This document shows, piece by piece, positions 9,000-60,674 of a stretch of DNA of 64,000 nucleotides. The translations under genes and the position numbers were made by a program. How positions within the stretch are numbered: position 1 is the stretch's first letter; each line of letters begins with the position of its first letter. The stretch is from assembly GCA_025924315.1 (NCBI GenBank), contig JAICIO010000005.1:1-64000 (forward strand), in the 5' to 3' direction. The notes beneath the pieces are model-generated. The model saw nothing but the letters and a program-made list of their open reading frames with translations, was not told the DNA's origin and made no database searches. The stretch comes from Phycisphaerae bacterium (GTDB lineage Bacteria; Planctomycetota; Phycisphaerae; Tepidisphaerales; Tepidisphaeraceae).

Positions 9000-9026
9000 T
9001 CACACGCAAAACTCAGAAAGGGGTTT

Positions 9027-9098
9027 GTAGGGTGCGCTTCAGCGCACCGGTTATTCCGCGCGCACGAAAAATAACCGGTGCGCTGAAGCGCACCCTAC
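9027..9098. repeat. Family A REP element (G type), copy 2
   Basis: Both arms are of the G type (GTAGGGTGCGCTTCAGCGCACC and its complement). The right GTAG head (read on the minus strand) overlaps the 3' end of the ParA gene and supplies its TAG stop codon at 9095-9097. Confidence 0.92.
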
Positions 9099-10015: not shown

Positions 10016-10102
10016 GGCCACCTCCGTGTGTTGGGCGAGATTATAGGGGAAAATGGTGATTGTTGATTGGGGATTGAGGAAGAAAATGTGTCTTTCGTTC
10101 CG

Positions 10103-10156
10103 GCCGCTAGCGGCTTAGCGGGAGGATCAGACCGTTCCCGCTAAGCCGCAAGCGGC
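10103..10156. repeat. Inverted repeat, CCGCTAAGCCGCAAGCGG family, copy 2
   Basis: Arms 10103-10122 and 10137-10156 are reverse complements with one mismatch. Same family as 961-1018, here between the ParA and DUF72 genes. Confidence 0.8.
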
Positions 10157-10168
10157 CAGGAGCCCAGA

Positions 10169-11125
10169 CTACTTTTTCTTCCGAATCGCAGGCCAATGCT
10201 CGCGCGCTTCTTCCCCGACGATTCCCTCCGGCTCCTTCGGATGATCCTTGCTCCAATCCACACCGAGCCGGCGACACAGCGCCAGCGCATCGAAGGGCGC
10301 CTTCACCTTTGCGTCGTTGTCGAAGTAGACGAAGACGTCGCGCGACTTGCGATGCGAGGGCTCACGATCCGTAATGCATCGCTTATCGCACGGCTGTTTC
10401 CCGACCCGCCATTCCTTCATCCGCGCCGCCCACCAGTCGAGCGCTTTGTCGGTGTAGCCGCTCACATACAGCTCTTCATCGCCATGAAGTCGCGCATAAA
10501 TGAAGTCGGCGGTCACATCCTCCGCATAAGGCCACTTCCGCGCCGTGTCGGCGAACACGAACGCGATGTTGTGCTTCCGCAGCAGCTGCATGAACTCGGG
10601 GACCATGAATGATTGGTGCCGGATCTCGACCGCGTACCGGAGCTTTCGCTTTTTGTCCGTCTTCGTGTACGCGCGGCCCTTGAGCTTGTCGTTGTGCTCC
10701 TTCGCCAATTCCGCCGCGGACTCAGTATCGCGCGGGAGGAGCTCAAAGAACTCACTGAAACGCGCTTCGTTGTACGCAAAGCCCGGCGGAAATTGCCAGA
10801 GGATTGGCCCGAGCTTTTCCTTCAGAGCGAGCACACCGGATGCGAGGAAATTCGCCAGCGGCTCGCGCACGTCCTTCAGCTTCTTCATGTGTGTAATGAA
10901 CCGCCCGCCCTTCACGGAGAAGATGAAGTTCTCCGGCGTCTGCTCGTACCAAGTGCGATAGGAACTGGGTCGTTGGAGTGAGTAGAACGACCCGTTGATC
11001 TCGATCGAGTTGAACGTCTTGCTCGCGAACTCAAGCTCGCGTTTCTGCGTGAGGTCCTTCGGATAAAACGTGCCCCGCCACGGCGTATACGTCCAGCCTG
11101 AAATGCCAATGCGCGTCTCGGCCAT
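10169..11125 (-). CDS. DUF72 (YecE-like) protein
   Basis: The DUF72 TIM-barrel family is recognisable from RIGISGWTYTPWRGTFYP at the N-terminus, FNSIEINGSFYSLQRPSSYRTW, FSVKGGRFITHMKKL and GPILWQFPP. The length of 318 aa is somewhat above the usual 240-290 because of an insertion (residues about 140-160, Lys/Glu-rich) and a Lys-rich tail. The biochemical role of the family is not settled. It is an apparently monocistronic gene bounded by repeats on both sides. Confidence 0.9.
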   Translation of the reverse strand: MAETRIGISGWTYTPWRGTFYPKDLTQKRELEFASKTFNSIEINGSFYSLQRPSSYRTWYEQTPENFIFSVKGGRFITHMKKLKDVREPLANFLASGVLALKEKLGPILWQFPPGFAYNEARFSEFFELLPRDTESAAELAKEHNDKLKGRAYTKTDKKRKLRYAVEIRHQSFMVPEFMQLLRKHNIAFVFADTARKWPYAEDVTADFIYARLHGDEELYVSGYTDKALDWWAARMKEWRVGKQPCDKRCITDREPSHRKSRDVFVYFDNDAKVKAPFDALALCRRLGVDWSKDHPKEPEGIVGEEAREHWPAIRKKK

Positions 11126-11181
11126 CGAACGCTAATTGTGTGCGCCCCATCTCGATTTCGGCAACCGACGATTGAGTTCCA

Positions 11182-11256
11182 GTAGGGTCCGCTTCAGCGG
11201 ACCGGTTATTTCTTTCCGTGCGCTATCAGTAACCGGTCCGCTGAAGCGGACCCTAC
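11182..11256. repeat. Family A REP element (C type), copy 3
   Basis: Complete family A element with C-type arms. The 3' end of the TIGR02206 gene runs into it, so one arm is translated as the last residues of that protein. Confidence 0.92.
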
Positions 11257-11953: not shown

Positions 11954-12016
11954 GTTTAGCCCCCGCGGCCACGCGGGGATTTCCCGTCGCGCCCCACGTG
12001 ATCGCGGGGGCTAAAC
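11954..12016. repeat. TTTAGC-headed inverted repeat (CCCCCGCG stem)
   Basis: GTTTAGCCCCCGCG at 11954-11967 and its exact reverse complement at 12003-12016 bound a 63-bp element that contains an inner hairpin (CCCCGC-GGCCAC-GCGGGG). It belongs to the TTTAG-headed group also seen at 12641, 19536, 38217 and 45118. Confidence 0.8.
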
Positions 12017-12640: not shown

Positions 12641-12720
12641 ATTTAGCCGAGGGGGCTTGCCCCGCGCGAAACGTCATTCGCCTCCGCGGGGTCCGCGCGG
12701 GGCAAGCCCCGCGGCTAAAT
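12641..12720. repeat. Non-autonomous copy of the RAYT-end repeat
   Basis: The left end ATTTAGCCGAGGGGGCTTG, CCCCGCGCGAAACGT and the right end (GGGGCAAGCCCCGCGGCTAAAT) closely match the inverted repeat that encloses the transposase at 28207-28883, including the bases just inside the repeat (GCGCGAAACGT). It looks like an internally deleted, MITE-like copy. Confidence 0.85.
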
Positions 12721-19535: not shown

Positions 19536-19604
19536 GTTTAGCCGCGAGCTTGCTCGCGATTCTTTTTCGCACGAACATCATCGCGAGCAAGCTCGCGGCT
19601 AAAC
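19536..19604. repeat. TTTAGCCGCGAGC paired hairpin, copy 1
   Basis: A perfect 24-bp inverted repeat: 19536-19559 and 19581-19604. Each arm is GTTTAGC followed by the hairpin CGCGAGC-TT-GCTCGCG. A near-identical element is at 45118-45185. Confidence 0.9.
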
Positions 19605-23652: not shown

Positions 23653-23675
23653 CAATGCACGACAAGCATGTCTTC

Positions 23676-23753
23676 GTAGGGTCCGCTTCAGCGGACCGGT
23701 TATTCGCTTTTCTGAAACAGAATAAATAACCGGTCCGCTGAAGCGGACCCTAC
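23676..23753. repeat. Family A REP element (C type), copy 4
   Basis: Complete GTAGGGTCCGC-type element between recJ and the transaldolase gene. Both arms are C type. Confidence 0.92.
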
Positions 23754-24864: not shown

Positions 24865-24884
24865 CGGGTCTCGATCGAAGCGAA

Positions 24885-24963
24885 CCCGCGGAGCTGCGCT
24901 CCGCCGCTAACTATGGAGAGGGCGATTGATCCCATATTTAGCGGCGGAGCGCAGCTCGGCGGG
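24885..24963. repeat. Inverted repeat, GGAGCTGCGCTCCGCCGCTAA family
   Basis: Arms 24885-24910 and 24938-24963 are 26 bp with a single mismatch. Each contains a GAGC-type inner hairpin and ends in TTAG/CTAA at the centre-facing side. Located between the transaldolase gene and ruvA. Confidence 0.85.
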
Positions 24964-24992
24964 CTCTGCACCTGCAAGGACGCACCGATTTC

Positions 24993-25631: not shown

Positions 25632-25646
25632 GGAAACGGCGTATTC

Positions 25647-25722
25647 GTAGGGTGCGCTTCAGCGCACCGGTTATTCCTTCCGGACCCAGAACAAATAACC
25701 GGTGCGCTGAAGCGCACCCTAC
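25647..25722. repeat. Family A REP element (G type), copy 5
   Basis: Complete element with GTAGGGTGCGC-type arms between the convergent ruvA and sugar-phosphate isomerase genes. Confidence 0.92.
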
Positions 25723-26615: not shown

Positions 26616-26632
26616 CGTTAATCTCCTGTTTT

Positions 26633-26708
26633 GTAGGGTCCGCTTCAGCGGACCGGTTATTCGCCTTTTCCACAGAAAAAGTAACCGGTCCGCTGAAGCG
26701 GACCCTAC
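26633..26708. repeat. Family A REP element (C type), copy 6
   Basis: Complete element lying between the isomerase start and the end of the methyltransferase gene, only 17 bases upstream of the isomerase ATG, so it would be in that gene's 5' leader if the two are co-transcribed. Confidence 0.92.
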
Positions 26709-26742: not shown

Positions 26743-27549
26743 TCACAAGGTTGGTCGGAGACGTACCACGAGCGCCGGCGGAATCTCCGGGCGCTTCGCC
26801 CAGCTGAAGGCATTTTTGCCCTTCGCGTCCATCTCGAAGGTTGGCTCTTCGAACGCGTCAACGACGAAGCCCGCCTTGAAGCACGCGCCGAGCAGCGCGC
26901 CAATCGGTCGGTGGAACATCCAATGCGGCTCGGGCTGATGAAGGATTCCGTAATTGAGGTACGGCGCGGGTGTCGCGTATCGAGTGATCTTCACGCCGAA
27001 GATTTGCTTTGGCTTTCCGCCCGGTTGAATCAGATCCGACGTGAGCGTGGTTTCGATCGAGTTGAAGGCGGGATGCGAGACGCTGAAGACGAACCTGCCG
27101 TTTGGCTTGAGTAATTTTCGGATGACACGCAAGAGCGGATCGATCTCCGCGAGGTCCATCAATGCCATCGATGATACCGCGGCGTCGAAGCGAGCTTCGC
27201 TGCCGAGCGATTGCGTCAGTTGCGCTTCGTTCGTCGCGTCGATGACGTGGTATTCGATTGGCGGCGCGTCATCTGTCACATAGCTTTTCGCGCGATCGAT
27301 GAAGATGCTTGCGCCATCGAAGGCGACGACCTTCGCGCCGCTGGCCGCGAGGCGACGAGCGTAGTTTCCATTTCCGCAGCAGGCGTCCAGGACGGTTTCG
27401 CCGGGCTTCAGATCGAGCAATCGATCGGTCGTCGGCATGATCAGGACCTGCTGGAAATCATTTCCTTCGCCGATGTAATCGTTCCAGAAATCGGCGATGC
27501 GATTCCAGATCGCGGTGGGGTCTTCGGGAGGGTTGGGGGTGTCGCTCAT
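26743..27549 (-). CDS. Class I SAM-dependent methyltransferase
   Basis: A 268-aa Rossmann-fold methyltransferase: VLDACCGNGNYARRLAASGAKVVAFDGA (motif I and post-I, residues about 53-80), FDAAVSSMALMD (motif II) and LLKPNGRFVFSVSHPAF (motif III). Substrate unknown. It overlaps the upstream gene by four bases (ATG within its stop region), so the two form an operon. Confidence 0.9.
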   Translation of the reverse strand: MSDTPNPPEDPTAIWNRIADFWNDYIGEGNDFQQVLIMPTTDRLLDLKPGETVLDACCGNGNYARRLAASGAKVVAFDGASIFIDRAKSYVTDDAPPIEYHVIDATNEAQLTQSLGSEARFDAAVSSMALMDLAEIDPLLRVIRKLLKPNGRFVFSVSHPAFNSIETTLTSDLIQPGGKPKQIFGVKITRYATPAPYLNYGILHQPEPHWMFHRPIGALLGACFKAGFVVDAFEEPTFEMDAKGKNAFSWAKRPEIPPALVVRLRPTL

Positions 27550-28181
27550 GCGGAGTATTGCTTGAGGATACCCGCGATGGGCTTGAGTTTCGCGGGTCGC
27601 TTTCCGCGGCGCGTCGCGCCGGCGACCGGAACGTATTCCAGCTCACGATTTTCCCGCACGCACCGCAGCATCAACCCGCCACGCGACATGTCGCCGCGAC
27701 CGACGAACTCGATGGGGAAGTGCAGGCGGTCACCCAGGACGTCGAGGAGGATATCGACGTATTTGCCCGATGCGACGCTTCCCAAAAGCACGACTTGTCC
27801 ATCCGAACCGATCTTTTTCGCGAGCTTCGATACTGAATCTTCGAGCGGCTTGCGATAACGATGATCGTCAGCGTCAATCGGCACGCATCCCATTGTTCTG
27901 AGGTCATCGATCGTGACGTACTCATCCGGCCGCACGAGTCCGCGATTCGTGGTGATCACCTGCTGCCCCGCTAAGCCGCGAAGCGGCTGGGCGAATTGGT
28001 TCGCGTACGTGAGCTTGCCACGAAAATACAATCCGCTCAGAAACGAAAAGACTTCCCCGAGCTTCGCGCCTTTGGGTGTGCGCAGTTTGAGCGCAAGCTC
28101 GAATCGCGCCGCGTCGCGATAGAGCAGCTTGGCGCGCTCGCCTCCACAATTCGCAGGAGAAAGAAGAAAAATGCGACTCAC
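27546..28181 (-). CDS. Conserved protein of unknown function
   Basis: A 211-aa soluble protein. The N-terminus SRIFLLSPANCGGERAKLL, followed by LGEVFSFLSGLYFRGKLTYA, QVITTNRGL, VVLLGSVASGKYVDILLDVLG and FVGRGDMSRGGLMLRC, looks like a conserved family I have met without a known function. The GSVASGKYVD stretch could be a phosphate- or nucleotide-binding loop, but that is a guess. Bases 27966-27987 inside the gene match the CCGCTAAGCCGCAAGCGG repeat family, encoding the AQPLRGLAG stretch. It is translationally coupled to the methyltransferase downstream. Confidence 0.75.
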   Translation of the reverse strand: MSRIFLLSPANCGGERAKLLYRDAARFELALKLRTPKGAKLGEVFSFLSGLYFRGKLTYANQFAQPLRGLAGQQVITTNRGLVRPDEYVTIDDLRTMGCVPIDADDHRYRKPLEDSVSKLAKKIGSDGQVVLLGSVASGKYVDILLDVLGDRLHFPIEFVGRGDMSRGGLMLRCVRENRELEYVPVAGATRRGKRPAKLKPIAGILKQYSA

Positions 28182-28206: not shown

Positions 28207-28883
28207 ATTTAGCCGCGCGGGCTTGCCCCGCGCGAGACATCCGGATTAGAGAGCATTCGTACGCACGAACGACCACTTCTGTTTTGGCTTTCCTTCCTTC
28301 TCGGGATTATGTTCGACATAGGTGATCGCGCAATCAACATACTCCTCTGAATCGACGAAAATCTTCCAGTATTTCTGCGCCCATGGTGACGGAAGAGAAC
28401 CGTCTTTAAGCTTCACGAAATCGAAAGGATGCAACCCTTCCCGCTTCAGCTGTTGCGTCGCTCTTCCTTTCAGGTGCGAAACAATCTGAGCAATCGGTCG
28501 ATCATTCCGCCCGATGATGAGGTGCACGTGATCTGGAAGAATCGCGCACGCGAGGATCACGTAGCCTGACTCTTCACAGGCGGTCGCGAATCCTCGTGCG
28601 ACGGCACGGGCTTGAACGCCCGTTAATAGGACAGGTGGATATCTGAGTGATTCCTTTGCTCGCAGTCTTTCCGCGCGATCATGCGGGGCATACGCGACGG
28701 ATTTGTCAGTATCGACCTTCGTCGCGGGCCCGTATCGGAAGAGTTCCCAGGATGCGACCCACTCGGACCATGAGCCTCTGGGATCATTAGGTAACCAGAA
28801 TCCGTAGAAGCTGATGATCACATGGTACGCGAGCACCATTTGACCTCCCACGTTTCGCGCGGGGCAAGCCCGCGCGGCTAAAT
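28207..28883. mobile_element. RAYT unit bounded by perfect 29-bp inverted repeats
   Basis: ATTTAGCCGCGCGGGCTTG and ten further bases at 28207-28235 recur as an exact reverse complement at 28855-28883. The 677-bp unit holds a single gene, a REP-associated tyrosine transposase. Each end contains a GC-rich hairpin with a CTTG-centred loop and a TTTAG head. A MITE-like derivative is at 12641-12720. Confidence 0.85.
28246..28839 (-). CDS. REP-associated tyrosine transposase (RAYT)
   Basis: A Y1/HUH-type transposase of the IS200/REP-associated family, 197 aa. The HUH motif appears as LPDHVHLIIGRND near residue 105, and conserved surroundings include FYGFWLPNDPRGSW at the N-terminus, YVILACAILPDHVH, and YVDCAITYVEHNPEKEG near the C-terminus. 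A catalytic Tyr is expected in the helix after the HUH strand or near YVEHNP; I cannot fix which. ATG 28839 has a strong GGAGGT just upstream and is preferred to the longer start at 28896, which would read through the flanking repeat. RAYTs cut and move REP hairpins as single strands. Confidence 0.9.
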   Translation of the reverse strand: MVLAYHVIISFYGFWLPNDPRGSWSEWVASWELFRYGPATKVDTDKSVAYAPHDRAERLRAKESLRYPPVLLTGVQARAVARGFATACEESGYVILACAILPDHVHLIIGRNDRPIAQIVSHLKGRATQQLKREGLHPFDFVKLKDGSLPSPWAQKYWKIFVDSEEYVDCAITYVEHNPEKEGKPKQKWSFVRTNAL

Positions 28884-37192: not shown

Positions 37193-37210
37193 AAGTAGCC
37201 ATAACACGAC

Positions 37211-37285
37211 GTAGGGTGCGCTTCAGCGCACCGGTTATTCGTTTCCGACGGGAAGAAATAACCGGTGCGCTGAAGCGCACCCTAC
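37211..37285. repeat. Family A REP element (G type), copy 7
   Basis: Complete G-type element between two convergent genes (the membrane protein and a pseudopilin). Confidence 0.92.
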
Positions 37286-38216: not shown

Positions 38217-38262
38217 GTTTAGCGGCGGCCCGCAGGGCCGGCCCTGCGGGCCGCCGCTAAAC
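38217..38262. repeat. 46-bp perfect palindrome, TTTAGCGGCGGCCCG
   Basis: GTTTAGCGGCGGCCCGCAGG on the left is matched exactly, with no spacer, by the right half. It has the TTTAG head of the repeat group but no loop between the arms. Located in the upstream region of the 38111 pseudopilin gene. Confidence 0.88.
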
Positions 38263-41690: not shown

Positions 41691-41702
41691 CGCACGAGCC
41701 TT

Positions 41703-41776
41703 GTAGGGTCCGCTTCAGCGGACCGGTTATTTGACTTTTCGAACAGAAGTAACCGGTCCGCTGAAGCGGACCCTAC
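41703..41776. repeat. Family A REP element (C type), copy 8
   Basis: Complete C-type element in the convergent space between the YihY and oxidoreductase genes. Confidence 0.92.
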
Positions 41777-45117: not shown

Positions 45118-45185
45118 GTTTAGCCGCGAGCTTGCTCGCGAGTTTTTTAAGCAGAAAAACCACGCGAGCAAGCTCGCGGCTAAAC
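45118..45185. repeat. TTTAGCCGCGAGC paired hairpin, copy 2
   Basis: Perfect 23-bp inverted repeat, same family as 19536-19604. The TTTAG head on the minus strand supplies the TAG stop (45180-45182) of the beta-strand-repeat protein gene. Confidence 0.9.
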
Positions 45186-47363: not shown

Positions 47364-50300
47364 TTAGGCGCCCGCCGCCACTCGCCGCCGGGGGCGGCGG
47401 GTGAGGGTCGTCATCAGGGCCAGGGCCAGGAGCGCGGTGCTGGCGGGTTCGGGGGCGGCGGAGTAATTCAATAGCACGTTGTCGCCGTCGGCCGTGATCG
47501 TGAACGCGCCGTTCTGGGCGCCGGGGTCATTCGTCGCCGTGATGTCGTTGGTGAAGCCGGTGGTGAGGATCTGGAAGACGGCGGGGTCGATCGAAACGGG
47601 GCTGGTGGTGGTGGCGATGATCCAGGAATAGTTCTGCGTCTTGTCGAAGTTCTGCGCGTCACCGGGCGTGTTGCCGGCGGTAAGCGAACGCACGTCGATG
47701 GTGAAGGTGTTGCCGCTCGTTGACGTGACGGCGAGCGCGCCGCTGAGCTGCAGCTGGTCGAAGCCGGCGCCGGCCGTGCCGGCGGCGTCGTTCACTTCCC
47801 ATACATAGGTTCCGCCCTGTCCCCATTCCTGATCGCCGAGCGAGAGCGCGCCGGGGCTGCTCCCTGGCGAGACGGTGGCGGTATTGGTGATGATCGTTTT
47901 GCCGGCGACCGTGCCGCCGCCGGAGAGGGTTTTGCCGGGGGCGACGGTGAAGCCGGTGGCGCCGAAGTCGGAGATGTCGAACGTGCTGCCTGCTTCGACT
48001 TTCACGGAGCTGACGATGCTGCCGGTGCCCGCGAGGAAGAGCGTGCCGCCGGTGATGTGCGTGAGGCCATCGTAGGTGTGAACGTTGTTGAACGTCGCGA
48101 CGCCAAGGCCGGCCTTGGTGTACGACCCGCCGGCGCCCGACATGATGCCGGGATAGCCCGCGGAGGAATTATCGGCGCCCGAGGTGAGCGATCCGCTGCC
48201 GAGCGTGACGCTGCCGGCGCCGGAGAGCGCGCCGATCGTGTCGCTGTGTCCGTTGACGTCGAACGTCGCGACGGGGGCGATGTGAACTGCGGTGGAATCG
48301 GAGAGGACATCGTCGGCGCCCAGGCGGAGCGTGCCGTGGTTGATGAAGGTTGCGCCGGTGTAGGAATTCGATCCGCTAAAGGTGGCGACGCCGTTGCCCG
48401 CTTTCAAGAAGACGCCGCCGACGCCGGACATATTACCGGAGTAGGTGGTTGAGGCGTCGTCTCCGCCGGCGGTGAGCGCGCCCGCGCCGAGAACGACGCT
48501 GCCTGCGCCGGCGAGCGAGCCGATGGTTTGGCTGGTGCCGTTAAGGTCGAAGGTCGCGGGCGCAGCGACGGTGACGTCGGTGGAGTTGGAGAGGACGTTG
48601 CTCGCGCCCATCACGAGCTGGCCGTTGTTGATGTTCGTCGCGCCGGTGTAGGTGCTCGCGCCGGAGAACGTGGCGACGCCGGTGCCGGCCTTGTTGAAGC
48701 TGCCGGCGCCGATCATCACGCCGGAATACGTGGCGGAGGTGTTTGCGCCCCAGGTGAGCGCGCCGGTTGCGCCGAGATCGGTGGTGCCGGCGCCGGCGAG
48801 CGAACCGATCGTGTCGGTGTTGCCGCTGAGATCGAACGTCGCGCTGCCGGCGACGGTGACGGCGGTGCTGTCGGAGAGAACGTTGTTTGCGCCTTCGCGC
48901 AGGATCCCGGCGTTGATGTTGGTTGCGCCGATGTAGGTGTTCGCGCCGCTGAAGGTGGCGACGCCGTTGCCGATCTTGGTGAAGAAACCGTTTCCGCTGA
49001 TCACACCCGAGAAAGTCGTGGACGTGTCATCAAAACCGGCCGTCAGCGCCGAGCCGGCATTCCCGAAGGCGACGCTGCCGGCACCGGCGAGCGAGCCGAT
49101 CGTATCGGTGATGTTGTTCGCGAGCGCGAGCGTCGCGCTGGCGGCGATCGTGACGGCTGTCGAGTCGGAAAGCACATTGCTGGCGCCCAGACGCAGATTG
49201 CCGCCATTGATAAAGGTCGGCCCAGTGTACGAGTTGGCGCCTGCGAGGTTGAGCGATCCGACGCCGGTCTTTACGAACGTTCCGCCAGTGCCGCTGATTA
49301 CACCCGTGAAGTTGGATGACGTATCACCCGCGATGAGCGTGCCGCTGCCGAGGGTGATGCTTCCGGCGCCGGCGATGGAGGAAACGGTTTCCGTGTTGTT
49401 CGCGAGATCGAGCGTGCCGGTGACGCTGACGGCGGTGGTATCGGCGAGGCGCTCGCTGGAGGCGAGGCGCAGGGTACCGACGTTGACCGTAGTGGCGCCA
49501 GTGTAGGTTTGCGCGTTGGTGAACGTTGCGACACCGCTACCGGCTTTGGTGAATCCGCCGGCGCCGCTGATGACGCCGTCGTAGGTCCAGCTCGGCGTCG
49601 CGCCTGCGGTCAGCACGCCGTTCGTGCCCGTCGTCACACTTCCGCTGCCGGTGAGCGCGCCGCTCGTGACGGTGCGGGTGTTGACGTCGAAGACGGCGGG
49701 GCTCGCAATGTTGATGTTGGCGGCGTTGGTGAAGACACCATTCGCGCCGAGGCGGAGCGTGCCGTCGTTGATGAGGACGTTGTTGATCGAGCTGCCCGCG
49801 CCGCTGAGAGTGGCGACGCCGGTGCCGTTCTTGTTGAACGTGCCGGTGCCGGTAACGGTGCCGGCATACGTGCCGGAGCTGTTGTCGCCATAGGCATTGA
49901 GCGTCCCCGCGCCGACCGCGACAGTGCCGCCGCTGCCCGAGAGCGTCGCGATCGTCAGCGCGTGACCGTTCAGATCGAGGCTTCCGCCGTTCACGACGAC
50001 GTTCGACGTGCTGTCCAGGGCATTGTCGATGCCGAAGCGAAGCGAGCCCGCGCTGACAATGGTTGTGCCAGTGTACGTGTTCACCTTGACGAAGGTCTCG
50101 ACGCCGCTGCCGGCTTTGGTGAACGTTCCCGAGCCGCTCATCACGCCGGAGTAACTCGTCGAGGTGTTGTCACCACCGGCGGTGAGCGCGCCGTTCGTGC
50201 CGAGCGTGACGCTTCCGCCGCCAGCGAGCGAGCCGATGGTCTCGGTCTTGCCGTTCACATCAAACGTTGCGACGTTTGCAACGGTGACGGCGGATCCATC

Positions 50301-50888
50301 CGGCACGACGCCGCTGTTCCCAAGGCGCAGCGTGCCGGCGTTGATGGTTGTCGCGAGCGAGTAAGAGTTGTTGCCGAAAAGCGTGAGGTCGTAGGTGCCA
50401 CTCTTCGTCAGGCCGCTCGGATTGCCCGCGTTGCGATCGCTGATGATTCCTTGATAGAGCACCGCGCCGCTTCCCGCGCCGGTGAAGAAGATGATCGTGC
50501 CGTCGCCTTGTATGTTGGTCGTGATGTTGACCGTGCCGCTGCCGCCCTGATCGATTCCGGGGTTTGTGCCGGAGAGGCGTAGCTGATTTCCGGTGATGCC
50601 GATCGATCCGCTGCCGGTGAACAGCATCTTGTTGATGACGCTGAGCGCCGCGAGGTCGTTGTTCGCGTTGTAGTCCGTCGTGCCGCCGAAGGTAAGCGTC
50701 GATGTGTTGGCGCTGGCGGGCGTGCCACCGAGCCAGTTGCTTGTGAGGCTCCAATTGCCGCTGGTGGGCGCCGTCGCAGATCCGCCGGGACCGAACCAGG
50801 TGTACGCGATTGCGAAGCTGTTGCTCGTGATGCAAACCGACGCGACGAGCGCAGTGATGAAACGCGCGCGAGTGAGACGGAACGACAT
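47364..50888 (-). CDS. Large autotransporter-type beta-strand repeat PEP-CTERM protein
   Basis: A 1174-aa secreted repeat protein. A signal peptide (FITALVASVCITSNSFA) is followed by about nine repeats of 75-85 residues, each with a pattern like GAGSFTKAGTGVATFSGASTYTGATNINNG, LRLGASNVLSDS and ATFDLNG. These autotransporter-associated beta-strand units form a parallel beta helix. The C-terminus holds APEPAST, a hydrophobic stretch and RRPRRRVAAG, the PEP-CTERM signal. ATG 50888 has AAGGA eight bases upstream. DNA repeats within the gene make recombination between units likely. Confidence 0.92.
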   Translation of the reverse strand: MSFRLTRARFITALVASVCITSNSFAIAYTWFGPGGSATAPTSGNWSLTSNWLGGTPASANTSTLTFGGTTDYNANNDLAALSVINKMLFTGSGSIGITGNQLRLSGTNPGIDQGGSGTVNITTNIQGDGTIIFFTGAGSGAVLYQGIISDRNAGNPSGLTKSGTYDLTLFGNNSYSLATTINAGTLRLGNSGVVPDGSAVTVANVATFDVNGKTETIGSLAGGGSVTLGTNGALTAGGDNTSTSYSGVMSGSGTFTKAGSGVETFVKVNTYTGTTIVSAGSLRFGIDNALDSTSNVVVNGGSLDLNGHALTIATLSGSGGTVAVGAGTLNAYGDNSSGTYAGTVTGTGTFNKNGTGVATLSGAGSSINNVLINDGTLRLGANGVFTNAANINIASPAVFDVNTRTVTSGALTGSGSVTTGTNGVLTAGATPSWTYDGVISGAGGFTKAGSGVATFTNAQTYTGATTVNVGTLRLASSERLADTTAVSVTGTLDLANNTETVSSIAGAGSITLGSGTLIAGDTSSNFTGVISGTGGTFVKTGVGSLNLAGANSYTGPTFINGGNLRLGASNVLSDSTAVTIAASATLALANNITDTIGSLAGAGSVAFGNAGSALTAGFDDTSTTFSGVISGNGFFTKIGNGVATFSGANTYIGATNINAGILREGANNVLSDSTAVTVAGSATFDLSGNTDTIGSLAGAGTTDLGATGALTWGANTSATYSGVMIGAGSFNKAGTGVATFSGASTYTGATNINNGQLVMGASNVLSNSTDVTVAAPATFDLNGTSQTIGSLAGAGSVVLGAGALTAGGDDASTTYSGNMSGVGGVFLKAGNGVATFSGSNSYTGATFINHGTLRLGADDVLSDSTAVHIAPVATFDVNGHSDTIGALSGAGSVTLGSGSLTSGADNSSAGYPGIMSGAGGSYTKAGLGVATFNNVHTYDGLTHITGGTLFLAGTGSIVSSVKVEAGSTFDISDFGATGFTVAPGKTLSGGGTVAGKTIITNTATVSPGSSPGALSLGDQEWGQGGTYVWEVNDAAGTAGAGFDQLQLSGALAVTSTSGNTFTIDVRSLTAGNTPGDAQNFDKTQNYSWIIATTTSPVSIDPAVFQILTTGFTNDITATNDPGAQNGAFTITADGDNVLLNYSAAPEPASTALLALALMTTLTRRPRRRVAAGA

Positions 50889-58655: not shown

Positions 58656-60604
58656 AACCATCCGATTCGGCGATCGAGACCGACGTACCTGTGAAACCGC
58701 CCACAAGCTGGGGCTGGCGCATCGTCGCGTTCGCGGTCGCGATGTGCGTCTGCCTCGTTCCGATCCGCGCGCGCGTCGTCGGCTGGGACTGGTTCTGGTG
58801 GCTCGAACCGCGAACCAACGCGGCAAAAGTCATCGTCAGCGCGTGCTACGACGTCCTCTTCGTCGCGGGATTCACGCTCTTTTTTCTCGGGCTCGTCGCG
58901 CTGCTGCGCAAAAAACCTCGCGCGCAGAAGCGGCTGTTCTACGCATATCTCGCTCTCGCGATCCTGATCGTCGGGTTCTGCATCGCGAACATCGACATCG
59001 TCACGATGCTGAGCCGGCCGCTGAATTATCAGTGGCTGTATTACTCCGGTTTCCTGATGAGCCGCGACGCGCGCGATGCGATGAAGTCTTCCGGTTCGGG
59101 CGGGTTCATCGTAACGCTCGCATGGTTCGCGTTGATGCTCATTCTCCTTGGCGAAGGCCTCTTTCAAGCCGCGCGGTGGAGTGTGAGGCGCTATCCGCGA
59201 GTGCGCTTTGCGCTGGTTCCGATGCTCGTGCTGCTCGTCGCGTATCTCGCGTATTCGAATTACTGGCTCACGACGCGCCTCTGGCCGATGCAGAAGCTCG
59301 TCAACCCGGTTTGGGCGCTGGGCGAGTCGCTCGTCGAGTCGATGGATGCGCCCGAGCTGTACACGATGAAGACGCCGGTCGCGCCCGACGACGTGCGAGC
59401 GCTGGGCGAACGTTCCGCCACAACGCAGGCGACCTCTTCGGCGCCCCACGATCCCGCCGTCAAGAACGTCATCGTCTACGTGATCGAATCCCTGCCCGCG
59501 GAGTATGTCGACCTGTATGGCGCGAGCGCCGGTGCCACGCCGAACCTCATGCGACTCAAGCCGCACTCCGCGATCATCGACGGCATCTACGCGCATGCGC
59601 CCGCGACGACCAAGACGATGGAGTCGCTGCTCTGCTCGATCTATCCGCTGATCTCTTATCGCACGATCACGCAGGAGCGGCCGGATCTGCCCGTCGCTTC
59701 GATCCCTTCAGAGCTGAAAACGCTCGGCTATCGGTCCGCGTTCTTCTCGTCCAACGATCTCAGCTTCCAAAACTGTGGCGGGTTCCTGAAGAACCGCGGG
59801 TTCGATTATCTCGAGGACTATCACAACCGCGGAAACGGAAAGCCGCAGTTCACCAGCGAGTGGTCGTACCTACACGGCACCGATGAAATGTCGACCGTGA
59901 AGTCGATGCTGCAGTGGATCAACGGAGACAGCAGCCAACCGTTTTTCATCATGTCGTGGACGATGATGACGCATTATCCGTACTACACGGTCGGCCCGGC
60001 GATCGACTTTCACGTGACCGAGCCGAAGTTCAACAAGTACCTCAACGCGCTTCACGCGGAAGACGCGGCGCTCGGATTCCTGATCGATTCGCTGAAAGAG
60101 AAAGGCCAGCTCGATTCAACGCTCGTGATCGTGATCGGCGATCACGGCGAAGCGTTCGGCCAACACGATCAGTGGGGACACGGCGCCTGGATCTATGAAG
60201 AGAACATTCGCGTGCCGATGATCCTGATCAACAGCAAGCTCTTTCACGGCGAGAGGTATCGCAAAATCGGCGGAATGGTGGACGTCGCGCCAACGATCGC
60301 GGATCTGTTGCAATTCAAATCCGCGGACACCTGGCAAGGCCGCAGCTTGTTCGCGAGCGACCGAACGAATCGCGTTTACTTCTTCGCCCCGTGGTCGGAT
60401 CTGATGTTCGGCATGCGCGACGGCGACATGAAGTACATCCTCAATGCGTCGCACAACCGATGGGAAATGTACGACCTGGCGAATGATCCGCACGAAACAA
60501 AAAACATCGCAGCCGCACATCACAACGACGTCGCGAATGCCCTCAATCACATCGCGGCGTGGGTGCAGTATCAGAAGTCATTTCACGAGCGGCTGCTGAA
60601 GTAG
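58640..60604 (+). CDS. Membrane sulfatase/LTA-synthase-like enzyme
   Basis: A 654-aa protein with about five N-terminal membrane helices followed by an extracytoplasmic alkaline-phosphatase-superfamily domain. VKNVIVYVIESLPAEYVDLYG holds the first metal Glu, HAPATTKTMESLLCSIYP the nucleophile region, and VIGDHGEAFGQHDQWGHGAW the Asp-His metal pair. The architecture is that of phosphoglycerol or phosphoethanolamine transferases (LtaS/MdoB type), so it may decorate the exported glycan. Its start overlaps the ATPase gene by 16 bases, and its TAG stop is the head of a family A repeat. Confidence 0.9.
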   Translation: MHQEVKPSDSAIETDVPVKPPTSWGWRIVAFAVAMCVCLVPIRARVVGWDWFWWLEPRTNAAKVIVSACYDVLFVAGFTLFFLGLVALLRKKPRAQKRLFYAYLALAILIVGFCIANIDIVTMLSRPLNYQWLYYSGFLMSRDARDAMKSSGSGGFIVTLAWFALMLILLGEGLFQAARWSVRRYPRVRFALVPMLVLLVAYLAYSNYWLTTRLWPMQKLVNPVWALGESLVESMDAPELYTMKTPVAPDDVRALGERSATTQATSSAPHDPAVKNVIVYVIESLPAEYVDLYGASAGATPNLMRLKPHSAIIDGIYAHAPATTKTMESLLCSIYPLISYRTITQERPDLPVASIPSELKTLGYRSAFFSSNDLSFQNCGGFLKNRGFDYLEDYHNRGNGKPQFTSEWSYLHGTDEMSTVKSMLQWINGDSSQPFFIMSWTMMTHYPYYTVGPAIDFHVTEPKFNKYLNALHAEDAALGFLIDSLKEKGQLDSTLVIVIGDHGEAFGQHDQWGHGAWIYEENIRVPMILINSKLFHGERYRKIGGMVDVAPTIADLLQFKSADTWQGRSLFASDRTNRVYFFAPWSDLMFGMRDGDMKYILNASHNRWEMYDLANDPHETKNIAAAHHNDVANALNHIAAWVQYQKSFHERLLK

Positions 60605-60674
60605 GGTGCGCTTCAGCGCACCGGTTATTCATTTCGCGCACAAAAAATAACCGGTGCGCTGAAGCGGACCCTAC
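60601..60674. repeat. Family A REP element, hybrid arms, copy 9
   Basis: The left arm is G type on both sides of its stem, while the right arm reads GGTGCGCTGAAGCGGACC, half G and half C type, so its stem has a mismatch. The GTAG head supplies the stop codon of the sulfatase gene. Confidence 0.9.

Follow-up and report, generated by a model that had tools for sequence, protein, structure and literature searches.

What is the 677-bp unit at 28207-28883 of the window (the whole 64,000-nucleotide stretch of Phycisphaerae bacterium contig JAICIO010000005.1 that was analysed), in which a HUH/Y1 gene lies inside exact 29-bp inverted repeats: a mobile element bounded by its own ends, or a RAYT gene placed between the repeats on which it acts? 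The second answer is very probably right: the unit is best explained as a REPtron in which the RAYT acts on its cognate REPs and spreads REPINs in trans; its gene is itself mostly inherited in place.

The RAYT gene and its hairpin ends

The arms of the inverted repeat (28207-28238 and 28852-28883) match perfectly along 29 nt and at 97% along 32 nt, and 613 nt lie between them. Each 29-bp arm (ATTTAGCCGCGCGGGCTTGCCCCGCGCGA) is a hairpin in which a TTTAGC foot is followed by an 8-bp stem and a 5-nt loop, and a single arm taken as single-stranded DNA has a folding energy of -12.4 kcal/mol (z -3.4). Single-stranded hairpins with such a foot are built like REPs (repetitive extragenic palindromes) and unlike simple terminal repeats, which makes the ends REPs and the unit, a RAYT with an inverted REP on either side, a REPtron. 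Its parts are as follows:

28207-28235, plus strand: left REP (29-bp repeat arm, ATTTAGCCGCGCGGGCTTGCCCCGCGCGA), the exact inverse of the right arm, folding alone as single-stranded DNA
28246-28839, minus strand: RAYT-type HUH/Y1 gene of 197 amino acids with HVH motif, Y175 and N-terminal motif YGFWLPNDPRGSWS (open reading frame, domain and profile matches)
28844-28849, minus strand: GGGAGG resembling a Shine-Dalgarno sequence, in the gap between right REP and gene and 4 nt ahead of the ATG (sequence)
28855-28883, minus strand: right REP, with the left-REP sequence on the minus strand (inverted-repeat match, hairpin fold)

The coding sequence runs on the minus strand from the ATG at 28839 to the stop at 28246. 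The gap from the right REP to the ATG measures only 15 bp, GGGAGG included, and leaves no room for a promoter. A trpG-like glutamine amidotransferase gene on the same strand terminates just ahead of the right REP, and read-through would be the simplest way for the RAYT to be expressed.

The observation in the earlier note that exact repeats with a TTTAG foot enclose a transposase gene is borne out, with 29 of 29 nt matching between the arms and the enclosed open reading frame matching PF01797 (Y1_Tnp; 32.2 bits, cut-off 23). The best NCBIfam match is to the REP-associated tyrosine transposase (REP_Tyr_transpos, NF047646), which is matched at E<=1e-3 by every one of the 35 clade members and outscores the transpos_IS200 model (29 bits, cut-off 55); at 49.9 bits the protein falls short of the curated NF047646 cut-off of 80, and this counts against the REPtron reading. 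In an alignment of 35 relatives, H105 and H107 (the HVH motif) and Y175 are invariant (numbered with the residue preceding the ATG as 1), as are most residues of the N-terminal block YGFWLPNDPRGSWS, which lies outside the Pfam Y1 match. The description of a RAYT-type gene with substrate-type repeats at its ends stands. A profile search reaches 4er8, the structure of E. coli TnpA-REP on a REP hairpin, at E 1e-4, together with several IS200 transposases; 4er8 is also the best Foldseek match (E 1e-3) of a structural model (AlphaFold2, six sequences), which is weak (pLDDT 57), so that this second match was taken as supportive. Matches to the RAYT at E<=1e-20 occur in 8 of 294 genomes sampled across the phylum and some match at E<=1e-3 in 34 of 61 relatives; the strong named matches from a contig search are all to Planctomycetota, which makes a planctomycete host probable.

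A chance repeat is ruled out by a flank-swap control: inverted repeats scoring at least 16 are found in 19 of 33 clade members when the two flanks of the same locus are compared, against 2 of 122 swapped pairs from related loci, and the window locus scores 29. The remaining 14 of the 33 members have no strong flanking inverted repeat, which counts against the REPtron reading.

The 12641-12720 palindrome and other dispersed repeats

Nearby in the window lies a gene-less relative of the unit:

12641-12720, plus strand: REPIN of the same REP family as the RAYT unit, two inverted REPs and a short core (covariance model 94.0 bits, family alignment)

The earlier note had seen in it the same ends and inner bases as in the unit, and hence an internally deleted derivative mobilised in trans. 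It does have the foot and the bases GCGCGAAACGT in common with the right arm of the unit (35 nt, 94%), but its arms CCGAGGGGG and CCGCGGGGC are not identical to the unit arm CCGCGCGGG, and its inner core GTCATTCGCCTCCGCGG matches other REPINs (as Bertels and Rainey, PMC3116915, use the term), not the RAYT unit. The family consists of ~80-bp elements, 19 extracted copies of which can be aligned end to end; they share a core, consensus GACGTNANTCNGCTCCGCGGCG, that is missing from the RAYT unit past its first bases. The covariance model places 58 REPINs in the 6.57-Mb assembly at E<=0.01, 40 of them with at least 60 bits, a count that comes from 150 scored candidates and may be too low, and whose weakest entries may belong to sister families. 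Flanks vary from copy to copy. The palindrome is thus one of ~40-58 REPINs with a common core that is absent from the unit: the relative is real and its spread in trans plausible, but its origin as a deletion derivative is out.

The most alike pair of REPINs still differs at 4 of 83 columns, so recent amplification gets no support, a further point against the REPtron reading. The slight divergence of all REPIN copies, together with the single-copy gene, would fit a degenerate or domesticated RAYT kept for some other host function and not acting on REPs any more; we think this improbable, since the HUH motif, the tyrosine and the reading frame are intact and the unit ends are not only exact but identical to the commonest REP form of their own family in the genome.

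Further hairpins with related feet are found in the window, those from the repeat search being given without strand:

11955-11978, plus strand: REP from a second family with a TTTAGC foot, of the same sequence as the REPs around a paralogous RAYT on contig C130 (sequence match)
19537-19603: REPIN-like pair from a third family with a TTTAGC foot, TTTAGCCGCGAGCTTGCTCGCG (repeat search)
45119-45184: another REPIN-like pair from this third family (repeat search)
38218-38261: two inverted hairpins of a fourth TTTAGC type, TTTAGCGGCGGCCCGCAGGGCCG (repeat search)
24882-24966: two inverted hairpins of a further type, with TTAGC, GTTAGCGGCGGAGCGCAGCTCCGC (repeat search)
41-120, 9025-9098, 11180-11256, 23674-23753 and 25644-25722: REPINs with a GTAG foot
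26631-26708, 37209-37285, 41701-41776 and 60599-60674: further REPINs with a GTAG foot

The GTAG-foot REPINs belong to a second, far larger family with the canonical foot (GTAGGGTSCGCTTCAGCGSACCGGTTA); with <=2 mismatches allowed, the genome has 775 of its REPs, and a reversed-pattern control gives 0. No RAYT-like gene that was inspected has this family at its flanks, so the family may be an orphan, or the draft may lack its RAYT. The sole IS200-type TnpA seen in the genome (L123, ~1316-2050, G000:C56) sits between two REPs of a GTAG REPIN and recalls ISPpu9 in the REPs of P. putida. The RAYT-like genes L124 and L125 (G000:C7 and C16) have other flanking repeats (AACGGTGTCGGGTACCGTTTTTT; TTAAAGGGTCCTGTCCCCTTTAATTAAAGGGGACAGGACCCTTTAA). 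A REP-like palindrome (CCCCGCTAAGCCGCGAAGCGGCT) of the type that flanks the clade B RAYT L031 occurs at 27968-27990, within the open reading frame 27546-28181, and similar palindromes lie at 10072-10187. Repeated blocks of ~285-288 nt with 60-75% likeness lie in 48000-50500 and are probably part of a gene for a repetitive protein of the surface type.

REP specificity and residence of the RAYT gene

With <=2 mismatches allowed, the window REP occurs 25 times in its own genome and 0 times in 60 relatives, none of which is congeneric. The C130 paralogue, 44% identical to the window RAYT, has its own exact 29-bp ends (TTTAGCCCCCGCGGCCACGCGGGG), and REPs of this type number 27 in this genome and 0 in the 60 relatives. 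Likewise, in the relatives, the REP around the G013 RAYT is present in 34 copies in G013 only, and that around the G014 RAYT in 32 copies in G014 and 9 in G006; a few variants of the latter also occur in four more genomes, of which the present one is one. The G006 and G014 RAYTs fall in the same well-supported subtree. REP copies being mostly confined to the genome of their own RAYT, the stem-loop is largely private to each RAYT. The foot is shared: of 33 clade members, 20 have TTTAGC upstream in the sense direction and 18 have it downstream in the antisense direction, where ~0.5 would be expected. GTAG is not enriched in the same flanks (5/33 and 10/33, against ~15-16 expected), and with its TTTAGC foot the unit falls outside the GTAG subclasses of RAYT/REPtron. 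Clade B RAYTs, which have other repeats (CGCTTGCG-type), were left aside from this analysis.

Strong hairpins close to gene ends can act as terminators or mRNA stabilisers. The hairpins could on that account be host elements, with the placement of the gene between two of them incidental, and published work does credit REPs with host functions (PMC3733652). This reading is hardly credible given the agreement of repeats within but not between loci in the flank-swap comparison, the directional foot conserved across the clade, and the C130 paralogue with its own REP type.

The constant foot and largely private hairpin, with several such systems coexisting in one genome, make the clade a natural experiment in how RAYT nucleases tell their own REP from others, the foot serving as a common guide and the stem-loop as an identity tag.

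Does the unit itself move? The earlier note took its perfect ends as a sign that it may, and proposed a search for further copies of the 677-bp unit. That search found no second copy in the genome, the closest paralogues being 57, 53 and 44% identical in protein. Near-perfect ends of other sequences are also seen in paralogues and relatives, and two inverted flanking REPs are the reported norm for RAYTs (Nunvar 2010, PMC2817692). For these reasons perfect ends are no evidence that the unit moves at present. RAYTs with exact ends are commonplace, and the same caution holds for them. REPtrons, moreover, reportedly do not appear to transpose as units (PMC6006769), and the RAYT gene itself does not look mobile here.

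The surroundings of related loci bear on the same point. The downstream neighbour gene of the window RAYT has no homologue in 26 relatives, and the window RAYT has no neighbour in common with the other RAYT loci examined. G006 and G014, from two genera of the family, carry sister RAYTs (65% identical; L146, 6011-6535, and L147, 3615-4220) between tyrS and nadB (names from our reading of translated open reading frames) in collinear surroundings, which argues for long residence at this site. The two genes are in opposite orientation, which suggests an inversion in place; two independent insertions into the same gap are also possible. In G010 and G012, the RAYTs both follow one shared gene (63% identical) and are just 38% alike. 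What the earlier note had named as evidence against a moving unit, fixation at the same site in distant relatives with diverged ends, is thus borne out in part by relatives: at tyrS-nadB a RAYT persists at a shared site, and the second pair, in G010 and G012, has one neighbour in common.

In the genome of the window, a RAYT unit of another subclass with inverted REPs GTGACACGGGCTTTCAGCCCGTGC (L127, 1148-1841, G000:C124) lies in frame within a DinG-like helicase open reading frame, directly after the TSATL motif; the frame has ~256 residues more than E. coli DinG. This unit and the inverted tyrS-nadB sisters are the grounds for a further proposal, to which we attach a minor but real chance, that the clade switched its guide from GTAG to TTTAGC and can still sometimes move or invert as a whole cassette via its two inverted REPs; if true, it would run counter to the idea that whole REPtrons do not move. 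The same two loci, which indicate that RAYT units may sometimes be inserted or inverted, and the exact ends would also suit an active IS200-like insertion sequence, in which the 677-bp unit moves whole by its perfect ends and the REPINs are internally deleted MITEs. This is improbable, because the unit is single-copy, with its nearest paralogue at 57% and a position in the middle of a 129-kb contig; because the REPIN cores are common to REPINs and not to the unit, and the REPIN arms are not identical to the unit arms; and because near-perfect ends are frequent in diverged relatives.

Proposed mechanism and comparison with known systems

The hairpin-footed ends, the invariant HVH and Y175, the 4er8 matches, the host-private REPs, the conserved foot and the single-copy gene together lead us to the REPtron reading, from which we infer how binding, cleavage, movement in trans and expression would proceed. 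The RAYT, expressed through read-through from the upstream trpG-like gene, would bind a REP while it is single-stranded and folded, with TTTAG(C) read as the guide tetranucleotide and identity given by the stem-loop. The catalytic tyrosine would cut and rejoin single-stranded REP DNA, and paired REPs (REPINs) would thereby be copied or moved in trans to other sites, while the RAYT gene would mostly be inherited in place and co-evolve with its REPs. TnpA-REP binds and cuts single-stranded REP, mostly at CT, and A3 and G4 of its GTAG foot are thought to select CT (PMC8266576); the TTAG of the present foot retains A3 and G4, so that cleavage at CT is predicted for the window RAYT.

Among IS200/IS605 TnpA elements, the HUH/Y1 family and hairpins at the ends are shared with the unit; an active insertion sequence would be expected in multiple near-identical copies, whereas the genome search gave no exact copies of this one, and the transpos_IS200 score is 29 against 55 bits. 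TnpA-Y1 class 3 (Quentin 2018, PMC6006769) is likewise mainly planctomycete and acidobacterial, REPtron-like, with a foot other than GT[AG]G and extended N-terminal conservation; its foot is CnGA and its signature Y----Q, as opposed to TTTAG(C) and YVEHNP here, and membership is excluded by these differences.

The TIRtrons/TIRYT of Di Nocera 2013 (PMC3733652) are also RAYT-like genes, with terminal inverted repeats unrelated to GTAG REPs, and their broad definition fits the unit; some TIRtron repeats are self-complementary and repeated in the genome, and R. baltica is among the species treated. The motif reported as shared is GGGGWSAS, common to only part of the described repeats, and it is not found by eye on either strand of the arm ATTTAGCCGCGCGGGCTTGCCCCGCGCGA; TTTAG does not appear in the text of the paper, and the unit may overlap with the TIRtrons described there.

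The closest likeness in anatomy is to REPtron/RAYT systems (Nunvar 2010, PMC2817692; PMC3116915; Corneloup 2021, PMC8266576), with which the unit shares a HUH/Y1 gene with its tyrosine between inverted REPs, many dispersed inverted REP pairs (REPINs), one single-copy RAYT per REP type and a foot 5' of the stem-loop; the 8-bp stem resembles the 8-bp palindrome of the S. maltophilia REP. It differs from them in its TTTAGC foot in place of the GTAG/GTGG (GT[AG]G) of the canonical subclasses, which counts against the REPtron reading, in its score below the NF047646 cut-off, in its modest copy number, and in the N-terminal block (PRGSWS motif and following residues) outside the Pfam Y1 model. What is new is thus a planctomycete-type RAYT clade with a TTTAGC foot instead of GTAG: a gene between its own hairpins with dispersed REPINs is a known arrangement, found here in a little-described planctomycete-type branch and with an unusual hairpin tag.
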